DNA of 23,053 bases from a virus, in the IMG/VR virus record IMGVR_UViG_3300030106_002621, positions 1 to 23,053 of that record, one strand, 5' to 3'. A model generated the notes under the pieces. That model was not told where the DNA came from, searched no databases, and was given only the letters and a program-made list of their open reading frames with translations. The first letter of the stretch is position 1. Every line of letters begins with the position of its first letter. The position numbers and the translations under genes were made by a program. Below are positions 1,659-21,856 of this stretch, one piece after another.

Positions 1659-3361
1659 TGGACCTCACGTATGTTCAATATGCCGAGGACGTCTTGAATG
1701 GAGAGATCCCGACATCGAAGTACGTTAGGAAAGCGGTTGAGAGCTTTGAGGAAGATCTAAACAAAGATGAGTTTGATTACTACTTCGATGCAGCAGAGGC
1801 AGAGAAGTACATCATGTTCTTCTCCCGCTTTCTGAAACACAGCAAGGGCACATTTGCTGGACAGAGCTTCGAGCTGCTTCCGTGGCAACAGTTTGTCATC
1901 GCCAACATCTACGGGTGGAAGAGGTCTGACAATCACGCACGACGCTATCGCACAGCGTACATTCAAGTCGGCAGAAAGAATGGCAAGTCCACTATGCTCA
2001 GTGGCTTGGCCTTGGCTATGCTTGACTTCGATGGTGAGGAGGGCAGTGAGGTGTACTTCGCGGCAACGAAGAGAGACCAAGCCCGCATCTGCTTTGATGA
2101 GGCAGCCCGTATGGTTCGATCAAGCCCAAGCTTGTCCAAGCGCATCGGAGTACACCGTGCGAATATGCACGTGACCAAGACAAACAGTAAGGCCGAGCCA
2201 TTGTCTAGCGACAAGAACAGTCTTGATGGCCTGAACGCGCATCTTGCCGTGATCGACGAGTACCACGCCCACCCGACCTCGGCTGTGTACAACGTGCTCA
2301 AGTCATCTATGGGTAGTCGCAAGCAACCACTCATGTTCACGATTACGACGGCAGGGTTCAACGTAGACGGAGCTTGTTATCAGTTAGCCAAAACGTGCAA
2401 GGAGGTCTTAGACAAGAAAAAGACAGATGACAGTCTCTTCAGCATGATCTACGAACTGGACGAAGATGACGATTGGCGGGATGCAAAAGGTTGGATCAAA
2501 GCAAACCCGAGCTTAGGGAGCAGCATAAGCTTGGAGTATCTGCAACAGCAATACACACAAGCCAAGAACTACGGTGGTGCAGAAGAGGTGAACTTCAAGA
2601 CCAAGCATTGTAACCAATGGGTGCGATCCAGTAGCAGTTGGGTCAGCGACGAAATATGGAAAGCCAATGATCTTGGCGTGGTCGATTGGGACGGGGAGAC
2701 AACTTGCTATGGTGGTCTTGACCTTGCAAGCGTCAGTGACTTTTGCAGCCTAGTGCTCGTTAGCCCACGCAGCGATGGAGGCTATGACACCAAACGCTTC
2801 TATTGGTTGCCAGAGGATGCCATCGAGAAAAGATTATACAAAGATGAAAGTACCATCTACATGGAGCTGCGATTCGCAGAAGAAGTCTTTGTCACTCCGG
2901 GCAACGTCACGGATTACGATTACATACGTCGTTGCATCACAGGCTACTATGTGGAAAACGGTGTGGTAAACTTCGACGACGATTGCTTGATGAAGAAGTA
3001 CGATCTTCGTAGCATCGCTTTCGATAGGTATAATAGCAGTCAGCTAATTATCAATCTAACCAATGACGGTGTAGAAATGTCACCAATGGGCCAAGGGTAT
3101 GTAAGCATGAGTGCGCCTATGAAGGAGGTGTACCGTTTACTGCTGGAAGGCAAACTTAATCACGAAGGCGACCCGGTGCTCAGGTGGATGGCTGGCAACC
3201 TTGAAGTGACATACGATCCCGCCATGAACTGCAAGCCAGACAAAGCGAGATCTCAAGACAAGATTGACGGGATCACAGCTCTGATCTGTGCTGTGGGTGA
3301 AGCCATGACTGAGACCCATGATGACGAGCTACCGGAAGATTACACCATACGTTTCTTATGA
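1655..3361 (+). CDS. terL: Phage terminase large subunit
   Basis: This is the 568-residue packaging motor, with ATPase and nuclease domains. The ATPase has an adenine-contact region around LLPWQQF (74-80), a Walker A variant QVGRKNGKS (104-112) and a Walker B LAVIDE (197-202) with E202 as likely catalytic carboxylate, followed by TITTAG (229-234) as the coupling segment. The nuclease half has acidic residues D356 (GGLDLAS), D457 (IAFDRYN) and D538 (KIDGI), as in RNase H-like terminase nucleases. Length and motif order fit the Terminase_1 / HK97 group. There are two adjacent ATGs, at 1655 and 1658; the first gives an ATGA-type overlap with the HNH gene. The end overlaps the next small gene by 4 bases. 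Confidence 0.97.
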   Translation: MMDLTYVQYAEDVLNGEIPTSKYVRKAVESFEEDLNKDEFDYYFDAAEAEKYIMFFSRFLKHSKGTFAGQSFELLPWQQFVIANIYGWKRSDNHARRYRTAYIQVGRKNGKSTMLSGLALAMLDFDGEEGSEVYFAATKRDQARICFDEAARMVRSSPSLSKRIGVHRANMHVTKTNSKAEPLSSDKNSLDGLNAHLAVIDEYHAHPTSAVYNVLKSSMGSRKQPLMFTITTAGFNVDGACYQLAKTCKEVLDKKKTDDSLFSMIYELDEDDDWRDAKGWIKANPSLGSSISLEYLQQQYTQAKNYGGAEEVNFKTKHCNQWVRSSSSWVSDEIWKANDLGVVDWDGETTCYGGLDLASVSDFCSLVLVSPRSDGGYDTKRFYWLPEDAIEKRLYKDESTIYMELRFAEEVFVTPGNVTDYDYIRRCITGYYVENGVVNFDDDCLMKKYDLRSIAFDRYNSSQLIINLTNDGVEMSPMGQGYVSMSAPMKEVYRLLLEGKLNHEGDPVLRWMAGNLEVTYDPAMNCKPDKARSQDKIDGITALICAVGEAMTETHDDELPEDYTIRFL

Positions 3362-3579
3362 CTTGCGAAGAGAAGCTTCAACTTGCAAGGAAACTTAATA
3401 CTGCCGAAGGCTTCGTCGACGAATACCAAAACAGACTGTACGACTACACGAGGAACATTGATGCCTACTACTCAGTGGAGAATGATTACTTTGATTTGTT
3501 TGGCCGCAACAGGTATAGCTGTTACCAGAGCTTCCACACGATTTTGAGAAGAATCATAAAAAGAAATCGAACAAGGTAG
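3358..3579 (+). CDS. Small hypothetical protein in packaging cluster
   Basis: I do not recognise this 73-residue protein. It starts on an ATGA overlap with the large terminase stop, which supports it being a real translated gene. It is rich in aromatic residues (YDYTRNIDAYYS, then DYFDLFGRNRY) and ends in a basic tail with RRIIKRNRTR. There is no membrane segment or signal peptide. Its place between terminase and portal suggests a packaging accessory role, but this is position-based inference only. Confidence 0.65.
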   Translation: MTCEEKLQLARKLNTAEGFVDEYQNRLYDYTRNIDAYYSVENDYFDLFGRNRYSCYQSFHTILRRIIKRNRTR

Positions 3580-3587
3580 GGTGCTTG

Positions 3588-3612
3588 ATTGCCTATCTAA
3601 TGTAATCTTGCA
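3588..3612 (+). promoter_or_regulatory. Weak promoter-like site before portal gene
   Basis: The 36-base gap before the portal gene contains a TAnnTTTG-like element, TAATCTTG (one mismatch), ending about four bases before the ATG, with a poor TTG match 15-16 bases upstream. Spacing is shorter than the usual 17-23 of Bacteroidota promoters. It is recorded as a weak candidate; the A-rich run just before the ATG may simply aid translation. Confidence 0.2.
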
Positions 3613-3615
3613 AAA

Positions 3616-4848
3616 ATGGCTGAAAACCGGAAGAGCTTACTGACGCGACTACGTGAAGCTGTGACCCCTCCGCAAGAGGAGAAACGCTCCTTTGACCCGA
3701 CTCTCATCTACCCGTTCCGACCAACAGGCAGCGGAGTAGTCTTGAGCGAAGAGGGTGCGCTGGCGGTTAGTGCTGTGTATGCGTGTATCAACAAGATCAG
3801 TTCCACCATTGCAAGCCTTGACCTTGGATTGTACGAGGTGCAGGAAGATGGCAAGCGTGAGGACAAGACGCACATTGCATATCAGCTCATCACCCGTGAA
3901 CCAAATATGTACATGGGCGCGTATCATTTCTGGGTACACATTGTCAGCGATGCTTTGATGCACGGGGGCGGCTACGCCTTGATTGACCGCGATGCCAACG
4001 GGCGACCTAAGAGTCTGACTCTTGTGCCACCGGATCAGATCAAAGCCAAAGACTTGAATGGTCGTCGCATCTACCTTTATCGTGATAGTGACGAGGCACT
4101 CTTTAATGATGATGTTCTTGCGATTGAATGCTTCCGTGGCATCAGTCCGATTCAAGAGCACCTAGAGAACATTGGGCTTTCCTATGCCGCGCAGCAATAT
4201 GGGGCTGCCTTCTTTGGAAGTGGGGGCAACATGAGCGGAGTGCTCATGACAGACAAAACCCTGAGCGAAGATCAATACCGTCGTTTGGCGGGCACTTGGG
4301 ATCAGAAGTACCACGGCATGAACGCAAGTCACGCCACGGCCATTCTGGAAGCAGGGCTGAAGTATGAGCGTGTTGGCATCCCACCGGAGACGGCTCAGGC
4401 TTTGCAAACGCGAAGGTATCAAGTAGAGGAGATCTGCCGCATCTTCAATGTCCCCCCTTCACTGATCCAAATGAGCAGTGATGTGAAGTACAGCAACGTT
4501 GAGCAGCAAGACTTGTTCTTTGCCAAGCATACGATCGCTCCGTGGGTCGTAAACATTGAGCAGGAGCTTCGTCGTAAAATGTTGTTGCCTGTTGAGCGAG
4601 AGACATACGAGTTCAAGTTCTCCATGCTTAGTTTGATGCGTGGCGATATGGGAGCGAGAGCAAACTATTATCACACTTTGTTGTCTGATGGGGTATTGTC
4701 TATCAACGAAGTTCGTGCCTTAGAGGATCGCAACAGCATCCGCGACGGGGACATTCATTTGGTACAAGTGAATCAGTTGCCGCTAGAGGCTATGCGTGAC
4801 TACGCTAAATCTATCACCGGAGAACAAGTCGATGGCGACGTACAGTAA
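3616..4848 (+). CDS. HK97-family phage portal protein
   Basis: This 410-residue portal would form the dodecameric ring at the capsid vertex through which DNA is packaged and ejected. Typical features are AVSAVYACINKIS (50-62), the NMYMGAYHFW stretch (97-106), LTLVPPDQI (134-142), the ISPIQ motif (176-180) and ICRIFNVPPSLI (273-284), all in the order seen in HK97-type portals. Length is normal for the family. It lies directly before the protease and capsid genes, the standard head cassette. The 3' end overlaps the protease gene by 17 bases. An A-rich sequence precedes the ATG. Confidence 0.96.
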   Translation: MAENRKSLLTRLREAVTPPQEEKRSFDPTLIYPFRPTGSGVVLSEEGALAVSAVYACINKISSTIASLDLGLYEVQEDGKREDKTHIAYQLITREPNMYMGAYHFWVHIVSDALMHGGGYALIDRDANGRPKSLTLVPPDQIKAKDLNGRRIYLYRDSDEALFNDDVLAIECFRGISPIQEHLENIGLSYAAQQYGAAFFGSGGNMSGVLMTDKTLSEDQYRRLAGTWDQKYHGMNASHATAILEAGLKYERVGIPPETAQALQTRRYQVEEICRIFNVPPSLIQMSSDVKYSNVEQQDLFFAKHTIAPWVVNIEQELRRKMLLPVERETYEFKFSMLSLMRGDMGARANYYHTLLSDGVLSINEVRALEDRNSIRDGDIHLVQVNQLPLEAMRDYAKSITGEQVDGDVQ

Positions 4849-18865: not shown

Positions 18866-19187
18866 GCAGTATCCAGATTTGCTCTACTGCGCCACCGTGG
18901 GTGGAGCACGTATGAGCATCAATCAAGCACGAATGATAAAGCGTCAGGGCTACCGTAAAGGTGTTCCTGACCTTATCTTTTATGAGAGTCGCAAAGGGTA
19001 CTACGGCCTTTGCATGGAGATCAAAAAGAAAGGAGGCCAACCATCGCCACACCAACGTGCTTGGATAGCTGACCTCCAACGGAGAGGGTATCAAGCCCTA
19101 ATATGCAAGGGTCTTGATCAGTGTATCGAGGCTTTTGAGGAATACTTCAATCTTCAACTCTCTCGAACACCGGACGCACCTGAATAA
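18819..19187 (+). CDS. VRR-NUC-type PD-(D/E)XK nuclease
   Basis: This 122-residue stand-alone nuclease has the VRR-NUC pattern. The PD-(D/E)XK core is GVPDLIF (48-54) with D51 and GLCMEIKKKGGQPSPHQ (63-79) with E67, K69 and Q79, and GYQALICKG follows. The first helix and a CATVGGAR segment (24-31) precede it. Phage stand-alone VRR-NUC proteins are thought to act on branched or flapped DNA in recombination or packaging. The gene overlaps the amidase by 47 bases and is the last plus-strand gene; its 3' end overlaps the convergent regulator gene by 41 bases. Length fits the family (about 100-130). Confidence 0.9.
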   Translation: MTEHQIQSLLVKLISEQYPDLLYCATVGGARMSINQARMIKRQGYRKGVPDLIFYESRKGYYGLCMEIKKKGGQPSPHQRAWIADLQRRGYQALICKGLDQCIEAFEEYFNLQLSRTPDAPE

Positions 19188-19374
19188 AGACGCTTTGTCC
19201 TAACACCTGTGCCCACTTCTTTAAGGTGTCAAACTTCGGGCAGAGGACTCCACGCTCGTACTTAGACAGGGTAGACTTGTCAATATCAGCCATTTCTGAC
19301 AACAAGTCAAGGCTCATGCCATTCCCTTTCCGTACAGTTTGAAGCTGCAAACACAGTTCTTTGATCTCATCCAT
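19147..19374 (-). CDS. XRE-family helix-turn-helix regulator
   Basis: This 75-residue protein is a compact XRE-type DNA-binding protein. The helix-turn-helix is at about 21-42 (SLDLLSEMADIDKSTLSKYE), followed by the typical ERG...P..DTLKKWAQVLG (40-59). The C-terminal strand SVFIQVRPV may aid dimerisation, as in some Hig/Hip-type antitoxins. The frame opens at 19404, but the ATG at 19374 gives the natural N-terminus (MDEIKEL). A Bacteroidota promoter-like site ends only four bases upstream, so the message may be almost leaderless. As the first gene met at the strand junction it may control the early/late switch. No toxin partner was recognised. Confidence 0.88.
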   Translation of the reverse strand: MDEIKELCLQLQTVRKGNGMSLDLLSEMADIDKSTLSKYERGVLCPKFDTLKKWAQVLGQSVFIQVRPVFERVED

Positions 19375-19378
19375 GAGA

Positions 19379-19410
19379 CAAAGATAGATAAAACATTCAA
19401 TCAATCCAAG
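19379..19410 (-). promoter_or_regulatory. Bacteroidota-type promoter for the XRE gene
   Basis: On the minus strand, an exact TAnnTTTG box, TATCTTTG (19386 to 19379), has a TTGG/CTTG element 19-20 bases upstream (about 19406-19410), a partial match to the TTTG upstream box. The start codon at 19374 lies just four bases beyond the downstream box, so the transcript would begin at or next to the ATG. The element overlaps the end of the preceding gene, giving the regulator its own promoter besides any read-through. Confidence 0.5.
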
Positions 19411-19639
19411 TTACTTTGATCTGAAAAGCCTCAAGCTCGTCTGCCTCGATGAACTCAGGGTAACGCTCACGCATCAAGTCCATGACTCTGGGCAGCAGCA
19501 GGAACTCAATGACCTCGCTCTCTTCAACAATGTAATCGGCCCGCATTTTGCCAGATGTCGGACAACGTCCTGCATTGTACTCAATGAACTTCAAGTCTTT
19601 TGACGCACGAACGTGAATAATCGTAGGATATTGCTTCAT
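19397..19639 (-). CDS. Hypothetical protein, 80 residues
   Basis: I do not recognise this protein. The frame is open upstream to 19738, but the ATG at 19639 (MKQYPTIIHVRAS) is favoured: it overlaps the stop of the 27-residue membrane peptide as ATGA and is preceded by GAAAGA. It looks like a small alpha/beta protein: strand (TIIHVRAS), a CPTSGKMRADYIV stretch, then a helix-rich second half (EVIEFLLLPRVMDLMRERYP). There is no membrane segment or known catalytic motif. Confidence 0.65.
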   Translation of the reverse strand: MKQYPTIIHVRASKDLKFIEYNAGRCPTSGKMRADYIVEESEVIEFLLLPRVMDLMRERYPEFIEADELEAFQIKVTWID

Positions 19640-19719
19640 GTGCGAGATCTTTCGATGATGAATGCGGACCCCACGAGGAGCAAGTAAAGAGAGGTGATGA
19701 TGTAAGCTACGATTTCCAT
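19636..19719 (-). CDS. Tiny 27-residue single-span membrane peptide
   Basis: An ORF of 28 codons lies between the dockerin-like gene and the 80-residue gene. The ATG at 19719 sits inside the last codons of the dockerin-like gene, and the TGA at 19636-19638 overlaps the next ATG (ATGA). The peptide starts MEIVAYIITSLYLLLVG, continues SAFIIE and ends in basic RSRT: one membrane span with a positively charged C-terminal end. The tight overlaps on both sides match the coupling seen through this operon. It fills an otherwise unexplained gap. Function unknown. Confidence 0.55.
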   Translation of the reverse strand: MEIVAYIITSLYLLLVGSAFIIERSRT

Positions 19720-19892
19720 TGTGCAGATTGTTTGTCAAGAGGAGGCTGCTGAGACAGCATTTCTAAGAAGTCATACATATCAATAGTGCCGTTCCCGTTG
19801 AAGTCAAACTGAGAAGCTTCACTACCCGGGGTCAACTCTGTGCCGTATGCCGTAAGCAAGAGCAACAGATTCATGATGAAGTCTGACCACAT
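19707..19892 (-). CDS. Dockerin-like / EF-hand-type small protein
   Basis: This 61-residue protein resembles a shortened dockerin. The first part (SDFIMNLLLLLTAYGTE, 3-19) looks like the helix of a dockerin repeat (DLLLLLAAYG). After a short linker comes a complete calcium-binding loop, FDFNGNGTIDMYDFLEML (29-46), with D30, N32, N34, D38 and D41 at loop positions 1, 3, 5, 9 and 12. So it carries about one and a half repeats, only one with a loop. Dockerins normally bind cohesins or other surface proteins; in a phage the partner is unknown. I chose the ATG at 19892; a TTG at 19907 and an ATG at 19874 are alternatives. No classical signal peptide is seen. Confidence 0.6.
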   Translation of the reverse strand: MWSDFIMNLLLLLTAYGTELTPGSEASQFDFNGNGTIDMYDFLEMLSQQPPLDKQSAQWKS

Positions 19893-19922
19893 ACCTCTTT
19901 TACGCAATTATGTCCGCTTGTG

Positions 19923-20708
19923 TTACACAACTTTGCCGTCAACGATTCGCTTATTTTGGACTTCGTACCTATCGCCACTTTTAAACTTGACAAACGCAAA
20001 TCCGTGGTTGTATTTGTTGATTGGACGATATGCCGGAGTCAGCTCTGACAGGCAGCCCATGGTCCAACAAGTGACCACCTTGCCCCGAACATTACGCTCC
20101 GTGTGCTCCCCAGACTGGTGATGATGACCACATATCGTTGGGGTCTTGGCTTTATTGTACAAGGCACGGGCAGGGCTGTTACTACTAGCACCCGTTATCT
20201 CATGACCGTGCATGATCGTGAGCTTGCCAGCCTCGATGTACCGCTTGTCACGCACGACATCCATTCTGTACTTGTCTGCCCACAGCAGGTTGTTGATCTC
20301 AAACTCGTCAATGCCGAGCAACTCAGGGGCTTTGCTCTTCATAAACCGCTCGTAGCGATCCTCGTGGTTGCCGAGTTGATAGATGAAGTGAGCCTTTGGA
20401 AAGACGTTACGGAGTGTCTGGAGGATTGATCGCCCCATGCGTAGTTCCTCTGCAAATCCGCGTCGTCGAGGATCCTTCTCAAATGAGCTTATGCTGTAAC
20501 AGTCAAGGAAGTCCCCATTGATCAGAATGGTGTCAGCCTTGTTGTCTACACCATACTGGATTGCAGCCGTCAGAGCCGCGACATTGTGATAGGGTACGTG
20601 TACATCTGGAAGCAGCAGGACACGCTTGCACTTCTTAGGCAAGGTGTACGGCTTATATGTATCTTCGTCAGAGTAAGGGAGGTTGTAAGGGTTTATTCGC
20701 CTTGGCAT
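19923..20708 (-). CDS. Calcineurin-like metallophosphoesterase
   Basis: This 261-residue protein has the metal-binding motifs of calcineurin-like phosphoesterases in order: LLLPDVHVPYH (about 31-41), INGDFLD (62-68 region), LGNHEDR, IMHGHE and CGHHHQSGEH. These coordinate two metals and hydrolyse phosphodiesters or phosphomonoesters. Phage members may act in DNA metabolism or nucleotide signal turnover; the substrate is not evident. The frame is open to 20849, but the ATG at 20708 (MPRRINPYNLPY) gives the expected N-terminus and overlaps the preceding gene by 16 bases. A 30-base gap separates it from the dockerin-like gene. Confidence 0.9.
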   Translation of the reverse strand: MPRRINPYNLPYSDEDTYKPYTLPKKCKRVLLLPDVHVPYHNVAALTAAIQYGVDNKADTILINGDFLDCYSISSFEKDPRRRGFAEELRMGRSILQTLRNVFPKAHFIYQLGNHEDRYERFMKSKAPELLGIDEFEINNLLWADKYRMDVVRDKRYIEAGKLTIMHGHEITGASSNSPARALYNKAKTPTICGHHHQSGEHTERNVRGKVVTCWTMGCLSELTPAYRPINKYNHGFAFVKFKSGDRYEVQNKRIVDGKVV

Positions 20709-20926
20709 TGTTGTTCGGTAAAGGACAAGCAGATAGGTAGAATAGAAATGGCAGCCAATACGACTGCCATCCATGAGATTCCGTTCAATACTATATCGTT
20801 GCAAGCAGTCCCCGCGATCAACCCCCCGATCGTCCGTTTTGCACTCCAACGCTTCAAATCTCCTTTTGTCTTGAAGGCTTGTGTTAGGTCAAGACCTGCG
20901 AGCGTTTGTAGGAGTTTGTGCTTCAT
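20693..20926 (-). CDS. Small membrane protein with two possible spans
   Basis: This 77-residue protein has a charged N-terminal part (MKHKLLQTLAGLDLTQAFKT), a basic KRWSAKRT motif (25-32 region), then two hydrophobic stretches: TIGGLIAGTACNDIVLNGIS and WMAVVLAAISILPICLSF. The topology, basic cytoplasmic part followed by a hairpin of membrane helices, recalls small phage holins with SxKR before the first span, but that is from memory and its place in the minus-strand early-type block is unusual for a holin. It starts on an ATGA overlap with the preceding stop, which supports it being real. Confidence 0.65.
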   Translation of the reverse strand: MKHKLLQTLAGLDLTQAFKTKGDLKRWSAKRTIGGLIAGTACNDIVLNGISWMAVVLAAISILPICLSFTEQQCQGE

Positions 20927-21201
20927 TCTAATCCAGATATACGACGAATGTGCCGCGAAAGTTCCCTTTGGCTAGGGGCGTAATCGTAAGTGACATCTAG
21001 CTTGTTCATTTCAAAAGTTGCATGCAACTCCCTGAACCTTAGCATTGACAAGTCTGAATCTAATATCTCTGCCTCGTACTCGTCGTGTACATTGTCGTAA
21101 TACCGACACTTGCCCAGCAGGTGCAACAGGTAACTGCGCATGCGCTCTGTGACTTCGGGCTTCTCTAACTCTTCAAAGATGTCGTCGATCCAATCATTCA
21201 T
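20923..21201 (-). CDS. Hypothetical acidic helical protein
   Basis: I do not recognise this 92-residue protein. The ATG at 21201 (MNDWIDDIFEELEKPEV) overlaps the methylase stop; the frame extends to 21243, but the extra residues would lie wholly inside the methylase gene. It is helix-rich and acidic at the start (DDIFEELEKPEVTERMRSYL), with YDNVHDEYEAEILDSDLSML in the middle and a basic end (QRELSRHIRRISGLE). Membrane segments and cysteine motifs are absent. It ends on an ATGA overlap with the membrane protein gene. Confidence 0.65.
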   Translation of the reverse strand: MNDWIDDIFEELEKPEVTERMRSYLLHLLGKCRYYDNVHDEYEAEILDSDLSMLRFRELHATFEMNKLDVTYDYAPSQRELSRHIRRISGLE

Positions 21202-21856
21202 CGCTATGCAGATATAGTAGTTCTGTACTGTGTTTACGACCACCCCAATGTCCTTTTAACAAAACAAACGGCAACCAATCTGCTTGATTGTTTTCACAAA
21301 CAATGACCTGTCCATTCCTTGTCTTTACCCAAGCGCTCAACTTGTCGTAATCCAGTTTGTTGCCAAACGGGTAATGTTCACCACCATTTTGATATGGAGG
21401 ATCAACAAACCAAGTGGCTCTTTCATTTTTGATTTCAGTGTAATCACCACACACTAGAGTCCAATGCTTTATTTTGTCCAAGATGTCTATGGTGCGTTGA
21501 ATCTTATGTGACACTTTAGGTGCTGCCCTTTTGGTCACTGTATTTCTTGGTGTGCTCACGCCTTCGCTCACCACAAATCCTAAATAATTCCGTTCCTCCT
21601 GACTTAAATTGTAATCGCTTAATCTTTCGCCATGTTGCAAAACAGGCAAGCTCTGTAGATCGCGTTTATTACAATTCTGTAGGTAACGCCAAACAGAGAT
21701 GATCGTTGGATTCTTGTCACATAGCACAATGTCGTTTTGCCAATGTTCGAGAGAGTACCGAGCTGATCCTGCAAATGGCTCAATTATTTTGTCATGAGAA
21801 GGCTCCGGATACAACTTAACCACCTTGCTTTTACTCCCGTAATAACTCCACATCAT
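21194..21856 (-). CDS. DNA adenine methylase, D12/Dam-like
   Basis: This 220-residue enzyme should transfer a methyl group from SAM to N6 of adenine. It has WSYYGSKSKVV (3-13) in place of the usual YxGGK start, the SAM-binding motif IIEPFAGSARYSL (24-36), LCDKNPTIISVWRYLQ (45-60) as the acidic loop, and the catalytic DPPY (152-155). It is shorter than Dam (about 270 residues), with a reduced target-recognition region, a form I associate with Bacteroidota phages. It probably protects phage DNA from host restriction or marks it. It overlaps the preceding gene as ATGA and the following gene by 8 bases. Confidence 0.92.
   Translation of the reverse strand: MMWSYYGSKSKVVKLYPEPSHDKIIEPFAGSARYSLEHWQNDIVLCDKNPTIISVWRYLQNCNKRDLQSLPVLQHGERLSDYNLSQEERNYLGFVVSEGVSTPRNTVTKRAAPKVSHKIQRTIDILDKIKHWTLVCGDYTEIKNERATWFVDPPYQNGGEHYPFGNKLDYDKLSAWVKTRNGQVIVCENNQADWLPFVLLKGHWGGRKHSTELLYLHSDE

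Follow-up and report, generated by a model that had tools for sequence, protein, structure and literature searches.

Dockerins are paired docking modules on secreted enzymes, and their usual interface is two-site. Type I dockerins (PF00404) contain two tandem calcium-loop/F-helix repeats, end a secreted protein, and bind cohesin. The protein that we describe here is encoded in a 23,053-nucleotide viral sequence (IMG/VR record IMGVR_UViG_3300030106_002621; hereafter the window). It keeps the first F-helix and the second calcium-loop/F-helix repeat of a type I dockerin, and the ligands of this remaining repeat (D1, N/D3, N/D5, and D12) are present in all 30 distinct members of its family. However, it has the second loop only, it is free-standing with no enzyme attached and no signal peptide apparent on inspection of the sequence, and no cohesin system is evident for the family. 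Because several of the features that define a dockerin were looked for and are absent, we do not count this protein as a dockerin, although its remaining half resembles one, and refer to it as a solo half-dockerin.

The original prediction had placed a 61-residue phage protein at positions 19707-19892 without naming a strand. This protein is borne out, and the strand is the minus strand, where the interval translates as MWSDFIMNLLLLLTAYGTELTPGSEASQFDFNGNGTIDMYDFLEMLSQQPPLDKQSAQWKS followed by the stop codon; the plus strand of the same interval contains two internal stops. An in-frame TTG lies five codons 5' of the ATG, which we chose as the start because nearly all relatives start there or within one or two codons. 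The five predicted loop residues, D30, N32, N34, D38, and D41, are all found in the translation, and the helix that had been described as loop-less indeed has no loop before it, either in the translation or in the AlphaFold model. The features of the locus are collected in Table 1.

Table 1. Features at and around the solo half-dockerin gene in the window.
Feature	Position	Strand	Remarks
HTH_3 (Cro/C1-type) regulator	19147..19374	-	downstream of partner gene; adjoins partner in L001 too
Partner gene, 80 aa (SKDLKF...KVTWID family)	19397..19639	-	ATG overlaps micropeptide stop (ATGA)
Hydrophobic micropeptide, 27 aa, MEIVAYIITSLYLLLVGSAFIIERSRT	19636..19719	-	overlaps end of solo gene
Solo half-dockerin gene	19707..19892	-	61 aa; ATG at 19892, stop 19709-19707
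Predicted parts of the solo protein			helix 1, residues 2-14; calcium loop, residues 30-41; helix 2, residues 39-47
Putative ECF-sigma-type promoter element, GTAAC-N17-CGTA	19901..19926	-	CGTA ends 8 nt before ATG
Metallophosphoesterase (Metallophos; phrog_221)	19923..20708	-	upstream of solo gene; stop inside GTAAC box

As a single sequence the window protein gives sub-threshold Pfam matches to EF-hand_6 (4e-4), EF-hand_1 (7e-4), and Dockerin_1 (0.0024), and the Dockerin_1 score of P0001 is 18.5 bits, below the gathering cut-off of 22.9. Dockerin_1 matches 27 of the 30 distinct members at E-values up to 1, the best being 2e-4. The similarity to dockerin and EF-hand families that the original prediction anticipated from HMM searches thus appears in most members of the family, with the window protein itself remaining below threshold. 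In a PDB profile search troponin C and calmodulin match the loop alone, and the match to the dockerin 2y3n_B also spans helix 1 (profile positions 8-42). The AlphaFold model (pLDDT 88) consists of a helix at residues 2-14, a turn, a loop from residue 30, and a helix at residues 39-47, which agrees with the predicted arrangement of a helix 1 with no first loop, followed by a calcium loop and helix 2. Dockerins make up most of the leading Foldseek matches (TM 0.42-0.58), with E-values that are not significant (0.2 or worse). We rejected a simple EF-hand reading. In a canonical EF-hand the E-helix runs directly into the loop and position 12 is Glu, whereas helix 1 of the solo protein ends at residue 14, the loop starts at residue 30, and position 12 is Asp in 30/30 family members. 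The long linker and Asp12 favor a dockerin without loop 1 over a canonical EF-hand, and the predicted fold is that of a dockerin minus its first calcium loop. Together with the solo reading frames, the Pfam matches, and relatives in the Flavobacteriales, this predicted fold upholds the name solo half-dockerin.

A scan of IMG/VR with the single sequence returned 10 relatives, and a scan with the alignment returned 43 viral loci. The solo gene is thus carried by 44 viral-contig loci including the window, and by one Flavobacteriales-binned contig. With lengths of 52-68 aa the proteins are all short, and no member is clearly the end of something longer: the phage reading frame starts at helix 1, and an in-frame stop lies upstream in 44/44 viral loci, mostly 2-14 codons away and 39-170 codons away in eight. 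Ten positions are invariant in the 30 distinct members (W2, S3, I6, M7, G17, D30, G35, D41, Q49, and P50). Loop positions 1, 6, and 12 (D30, G35, and D41) are accordingly fixed, and loop positions 3 and 5 (residues 32 and 34) are N or D throughout. Position 38 (loop position 9) varies (D in 15, G in 7, T in 5, S in 2, and N in 1), so that the predicted conservation of the loop residues holds at positions 30, 32, 34, and 41 and fails at position 38. Differences between related members fall at codon positions 1, 2, and 3 in the numbers 848, 537, and 2229. Judged from these comparisons, the solo half-dockerin is a dedicated small-protein family of phages, and the gene family is more than chance.

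The single match in genome_contigs, where each of 84,980 species is represented by one genome, is L045, which lies on a contig of 6.9 kb from a Flavobacteriales MAG. The amidase-like, metallophosphoesterase-like, and tail-like ORFs of this contig resemble those of the window and indicate a related phage. In annotated phage records there was no tblastn match to the solo protein at E-values up to 1, and the protein matches no PHROGs family. We found no account of phage or free-standing half-dockerins in the open-access literature, subscription journals being largely outside the search. The most likely hosts of these phages are marine Flavobacteriales, an assignment based on the one MAG contig and on the promoter and homologue match described below.

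The window gene sits in a minus-strand block of non-structural genes that includes the metallophosphoesterase, the HTH regulator, and a methyltransferase-like ORF, and the head and tail genes are on the opposite strand. This placement bears on the explanation that the solo protein is a minor virion protein attaching the particle to host surfaces. In seawater the one calcium loop would be occupied, and in L013-L015 the solo gene is near the portal gene; however, the location of the window gene, among non-structural genes and opposite the virion genes, argues against such a role, to which we assign very little probability, and the attachment to phage particles suggested in the original prediction is not supported. 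Elsewhere in the window, a 106-aa protein at 20923-21243 on the minus strand matches SPARC_Ca_bdg below the cut-off (E 0.002) and has similar ORFs in L001 and L045, and an ORF at 525-1316 on the plus strand, flanked by the small first ORF and an HNH-like ORF, resembles by eye a PAPS-reductase-like phage protein.

The neighbor most tightly linked to the solo gene across the family is the partner gene, whose products (72-84 aa; SKDFKF...TWV) follow the solo gene in 38 of the 42 loci with enough downstream sequence. The partner start usually overlaps the solo stop or lies within 3 nt of it, and in about 33 loci it is no more than a few bases from that stop; the partner thus would usually be translationally coupled to the solo gene. 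The micropeptide follows the solo gene in the window group and in a few others: L001, L012, L008, and L025 have homologues of it, and L013-L015 carry a related micropeptide. In most relatives a gene for an 86-aa lipoprotein precedes the solo gene. The tight linkage is an argument for the main rival to the interpretation that we prefer, namely that the half-dockerin acts only within a phage cassette, folding with or onto the partner and, in some phages, the micropeptide, in a small complex whose target is unrelated to host dockerins. No other gene is linked to the solo gene as tightly, and the ends that are specific to the phage family (MWSTYIM... and SQQPP) are missing from host dockerins. However, L013-L015 keep the solo gene and the micropeptide without the partner, L019 lacks both, and the partner protein has no recognizable family or fold, with no convincing match in Pfam, in PHROGs, or by fold. 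We consider a purely phage-internal complex unlikely, though not strikingly so. In L019, the gene at 3094-4392, immediately ahead of those for the lipoprotein and the solo protein, encodes a product that has a type-B sorting domain for type IX secretion (TIGR04131).

In ECF-sigma promoters a -35 box containing AAC and a -10 box containing CGT are separated by 16-17 nt. The sequence before the solo gene has this layout: AAC-N16/17-CGT is found 7-11 nt (mostly 8 nt) before the ATG in 43/44 viral loci, against 0.4 in shuffles, and in the non-redundant set with N17 spacing AAC and CGT are fixed and the spacer has mostly drifted. The -35 box in the window lacks a CTT extension (GTAACACA). Transcription that starts about 7-8 nt past CGTA would place the 5' end of the mRNA at the ATG, and the solo mRNA is therefore predicted to be leaderless. 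L019 is the sole exception; here the solo gene is instead TAATG-coupled to the upstream lipoprotein gene. In many phages, the window included, the upstream gene ends on the TAA within GTAAC, and these three bases are for this reason not independent evidence.

Instead of a promoter, the element could be a by-product of the upstream stop and tight gene packing, or an operator for a phage regulator; in favor of such a reading are the double use of the TAA and the near-unique occurrence of the site, about once per record, in each phage genome. However, the element is present where no upstream stop contributes to it, in L008 (behind a terminator-like hairpin), in L013-L015 (CAAAC), and in L025/L026 (GGAAC), a stop codon cannot account for CGTA, and the same two boxes with the same spacing precede host ORFs (see below). 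We therefore regard an operator or by-product as improbable, and continue with the element as a putative promoter. A phage-encoded sigma factor was considered as its driver and rejected, with a confident Sigma70_r2 match only in G033 and none in the window record; several relatives have sub-threshold matches to sigma region 4. Small sigma-like proteins of about 143-175 aa with sub-threshold Sigma70_r2/r4 matches occur in relatives of this phage, in L006 (3769-4266, minus strand), G002, G008, G015, G023-G025, and G027. The near-unique occurrence of the element in each phage genome favors a host sigma factor, and we infer that a host ECF sigma factor would transcribe the phage solo gene.

Relatives of the solo protein are present in the candidate hosts. 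When the phage profile was searched against 299 genomes of the order to which the MAG belongs (Flavobacteriales), 89 gave matches. Many of these are C-terminal two-loop pairs, e.g., DFNADLVRNLYDLLLLLVHFG...LDLDNDGTINTSDLLGLLTVFGVPC followed by the stop codon, which end large reading frames (1,250 aa). Helix 1, linker, loop 2, and helix 2 align with the phage protein over about 41 residues, but the pairs have both loops and end large proteins, and neither is true of the phage solo. Fifteen of the 299 genomes (L240-L254) encode a solo half-dockerin of their own, a 45-aa protein with the sequence MTLSDLLQLLANFMQPVTKANAMYDLNGDGLITTSDLILLLSQLL and variants (e.g., L241:443-577, plus strand). In the 13 loci scanned, this gene always ends just before a tRNA-Met on the opposite strand, and in 12 of them a tRNA-Val lies on its other side. 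Differences between the host solo genes are mainly at codon position 3, and the gene is for this reason very likely translated; it has probably been overlooked by annotation. The host protein (alignment A3) is free-standing, has no first loop, and is similar in sequence to the phage solo, whereas it has a shorter linker, lacks the phage-type ends, and is not followed by a partner gene. The phage and host solo profiles (A2-A3, hhalign) align over 41 columns (37%, probability 96.8%, E 2.7e-10). By these profile alignments the phage solo is homologous both to the C-terminal pairs of Flavobacteriales and to the 45-aa host solo. In viral contigs the host-solo profile gave no more than weak partial matches, and there is no ECF-type element immediately upstream of the host solo genes.

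The dockerin homology and the dockerin-like C-termini in host genomes also lend themselves to the explanation that the solo protein occupies cohesin-like scaffolds or surface-anchoring partners of the host, perhaps externally after lysis. However, the solo protein lacks a signal peptide, cohesin exceeds the cut-off in only 12 of 150 genomes from this order with no solo-carrying genome among the matches listed, and the absence of the first loop leaves the usual two-site interface of dockerins incomplete. We judge this explanation highly improbable. The original prediction had suggested the occupation of host cohesins and, alternatively, an interaction with an extracellular host assembly; the rarity of cohesin in the host order and the missing signal peptide leave the former unsupported, and the missing signal peptide likewise the latter. 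That prediction did not include the ECF-type promoter, the partner gene coupled to the solo gene, or the counterpart in hosts.

The promoter-like element, too, has counterparts in candidate-host genomes. A search for GTAACCTTT-N13/14-CGTA, which corresponds to 17- and 18-nt spacers, returned by hand count 128 matches with the 17-nt spacer versus 18 with the 18-nt spacer, where chance predicts equality. The total in hosts is not above that of a reversed-pattern control, and only spacing and position are for this reason informative. Among the 17-nt sites inspected, which were partly picked from genomes with multiple hits, 37/64 are followed by an ORF start at a distance of 5-60 nt; 28 of the 37 ORFs are signal-peptide-like as called by a crude script, and 12 have their ATG within 12 nt. 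In the controls ORF starts follow 2/9 sites with the 18-nt spacer and 2/30 sites with a scrambled -35 box, with no signal peptides in either (Fisher P about 1e-7 over sites). The targets include PorP/SprF proteins of type IX secretion (TIGR03519) and, by eye, Hpt-like proteins. We regard these targets as a candidate type IX secretion regulon under an ECF sigma factor, with leaderless mRNAs. Host loci L148-L209 have GTAACCTTT-N13-CGTA before PorP/SprF, other signal-peptide, and Hpt-like genes, several with an ATG 8-10 nt downstream. The element is present in 14/15 genomes that carry the host solo half-dockerin, an overlap that may reflect a single clade, and the MAG with contig L045 has no excess of the loose element.

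Our preferred interpretation, which we hold tentatively and at somewhat less than even confidence, is that the phages encode a leaderless half-dockerin driven by a host ECF sigma factor, and that this protein acts as a mimic on the envelope or secretion system of the host. The host sigma factor would transcribe the leaderless solo mRNA at times when the envelope or secretion regulon is active. The half-dockerin would be co-translated with the partner protein, and, having no signal peptide, would work in the cytoplasm, delivered together with the partner and sometimes with the membrane micropeptide. There it would mimic or replace the surfaces of host half-dockerins or dockerins and compete for the protein that binds them, which it would contact through helix 2 and the calcium loop. 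Intracellular mimicry is the least certain step of this scheme and a guess. As to its origin, the phages may have taken a half-dockerin from a host and placed it under the ECF regulon for surface proteins and type IX secretion, so that the leaderless mimic is made when this regulon is on; we consider this scenario possible, yet doubtful.

The conservation of a free half in phages and, separately, in their likely hosts, where a free-standing half-dockerin has apparently not been described so far, suggests that half-dockerins may act alone, without cohesins. Through the shared element, the phage gene is linked with a candidate ECF/type IX secretion regulon in uncultured marine Flavobacteriales, and whether a phage exploits an ECF sigma factor of its host becomes testable. 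The described systems closest to the element are ECF-sigma promoters, which include those of the SigP/PorXY-controlled regulon for type IX secretion in Porphyromonas gingivalis. The motif proposed for SigP, C(T)AAA(G/C/T)A(T)A(C)T(A/G)A (PMC4800418), differs from the AAC-N16/17-CGT element; however, as in the P. gingivalis regulon, the host targets found here include PorP-type genes.
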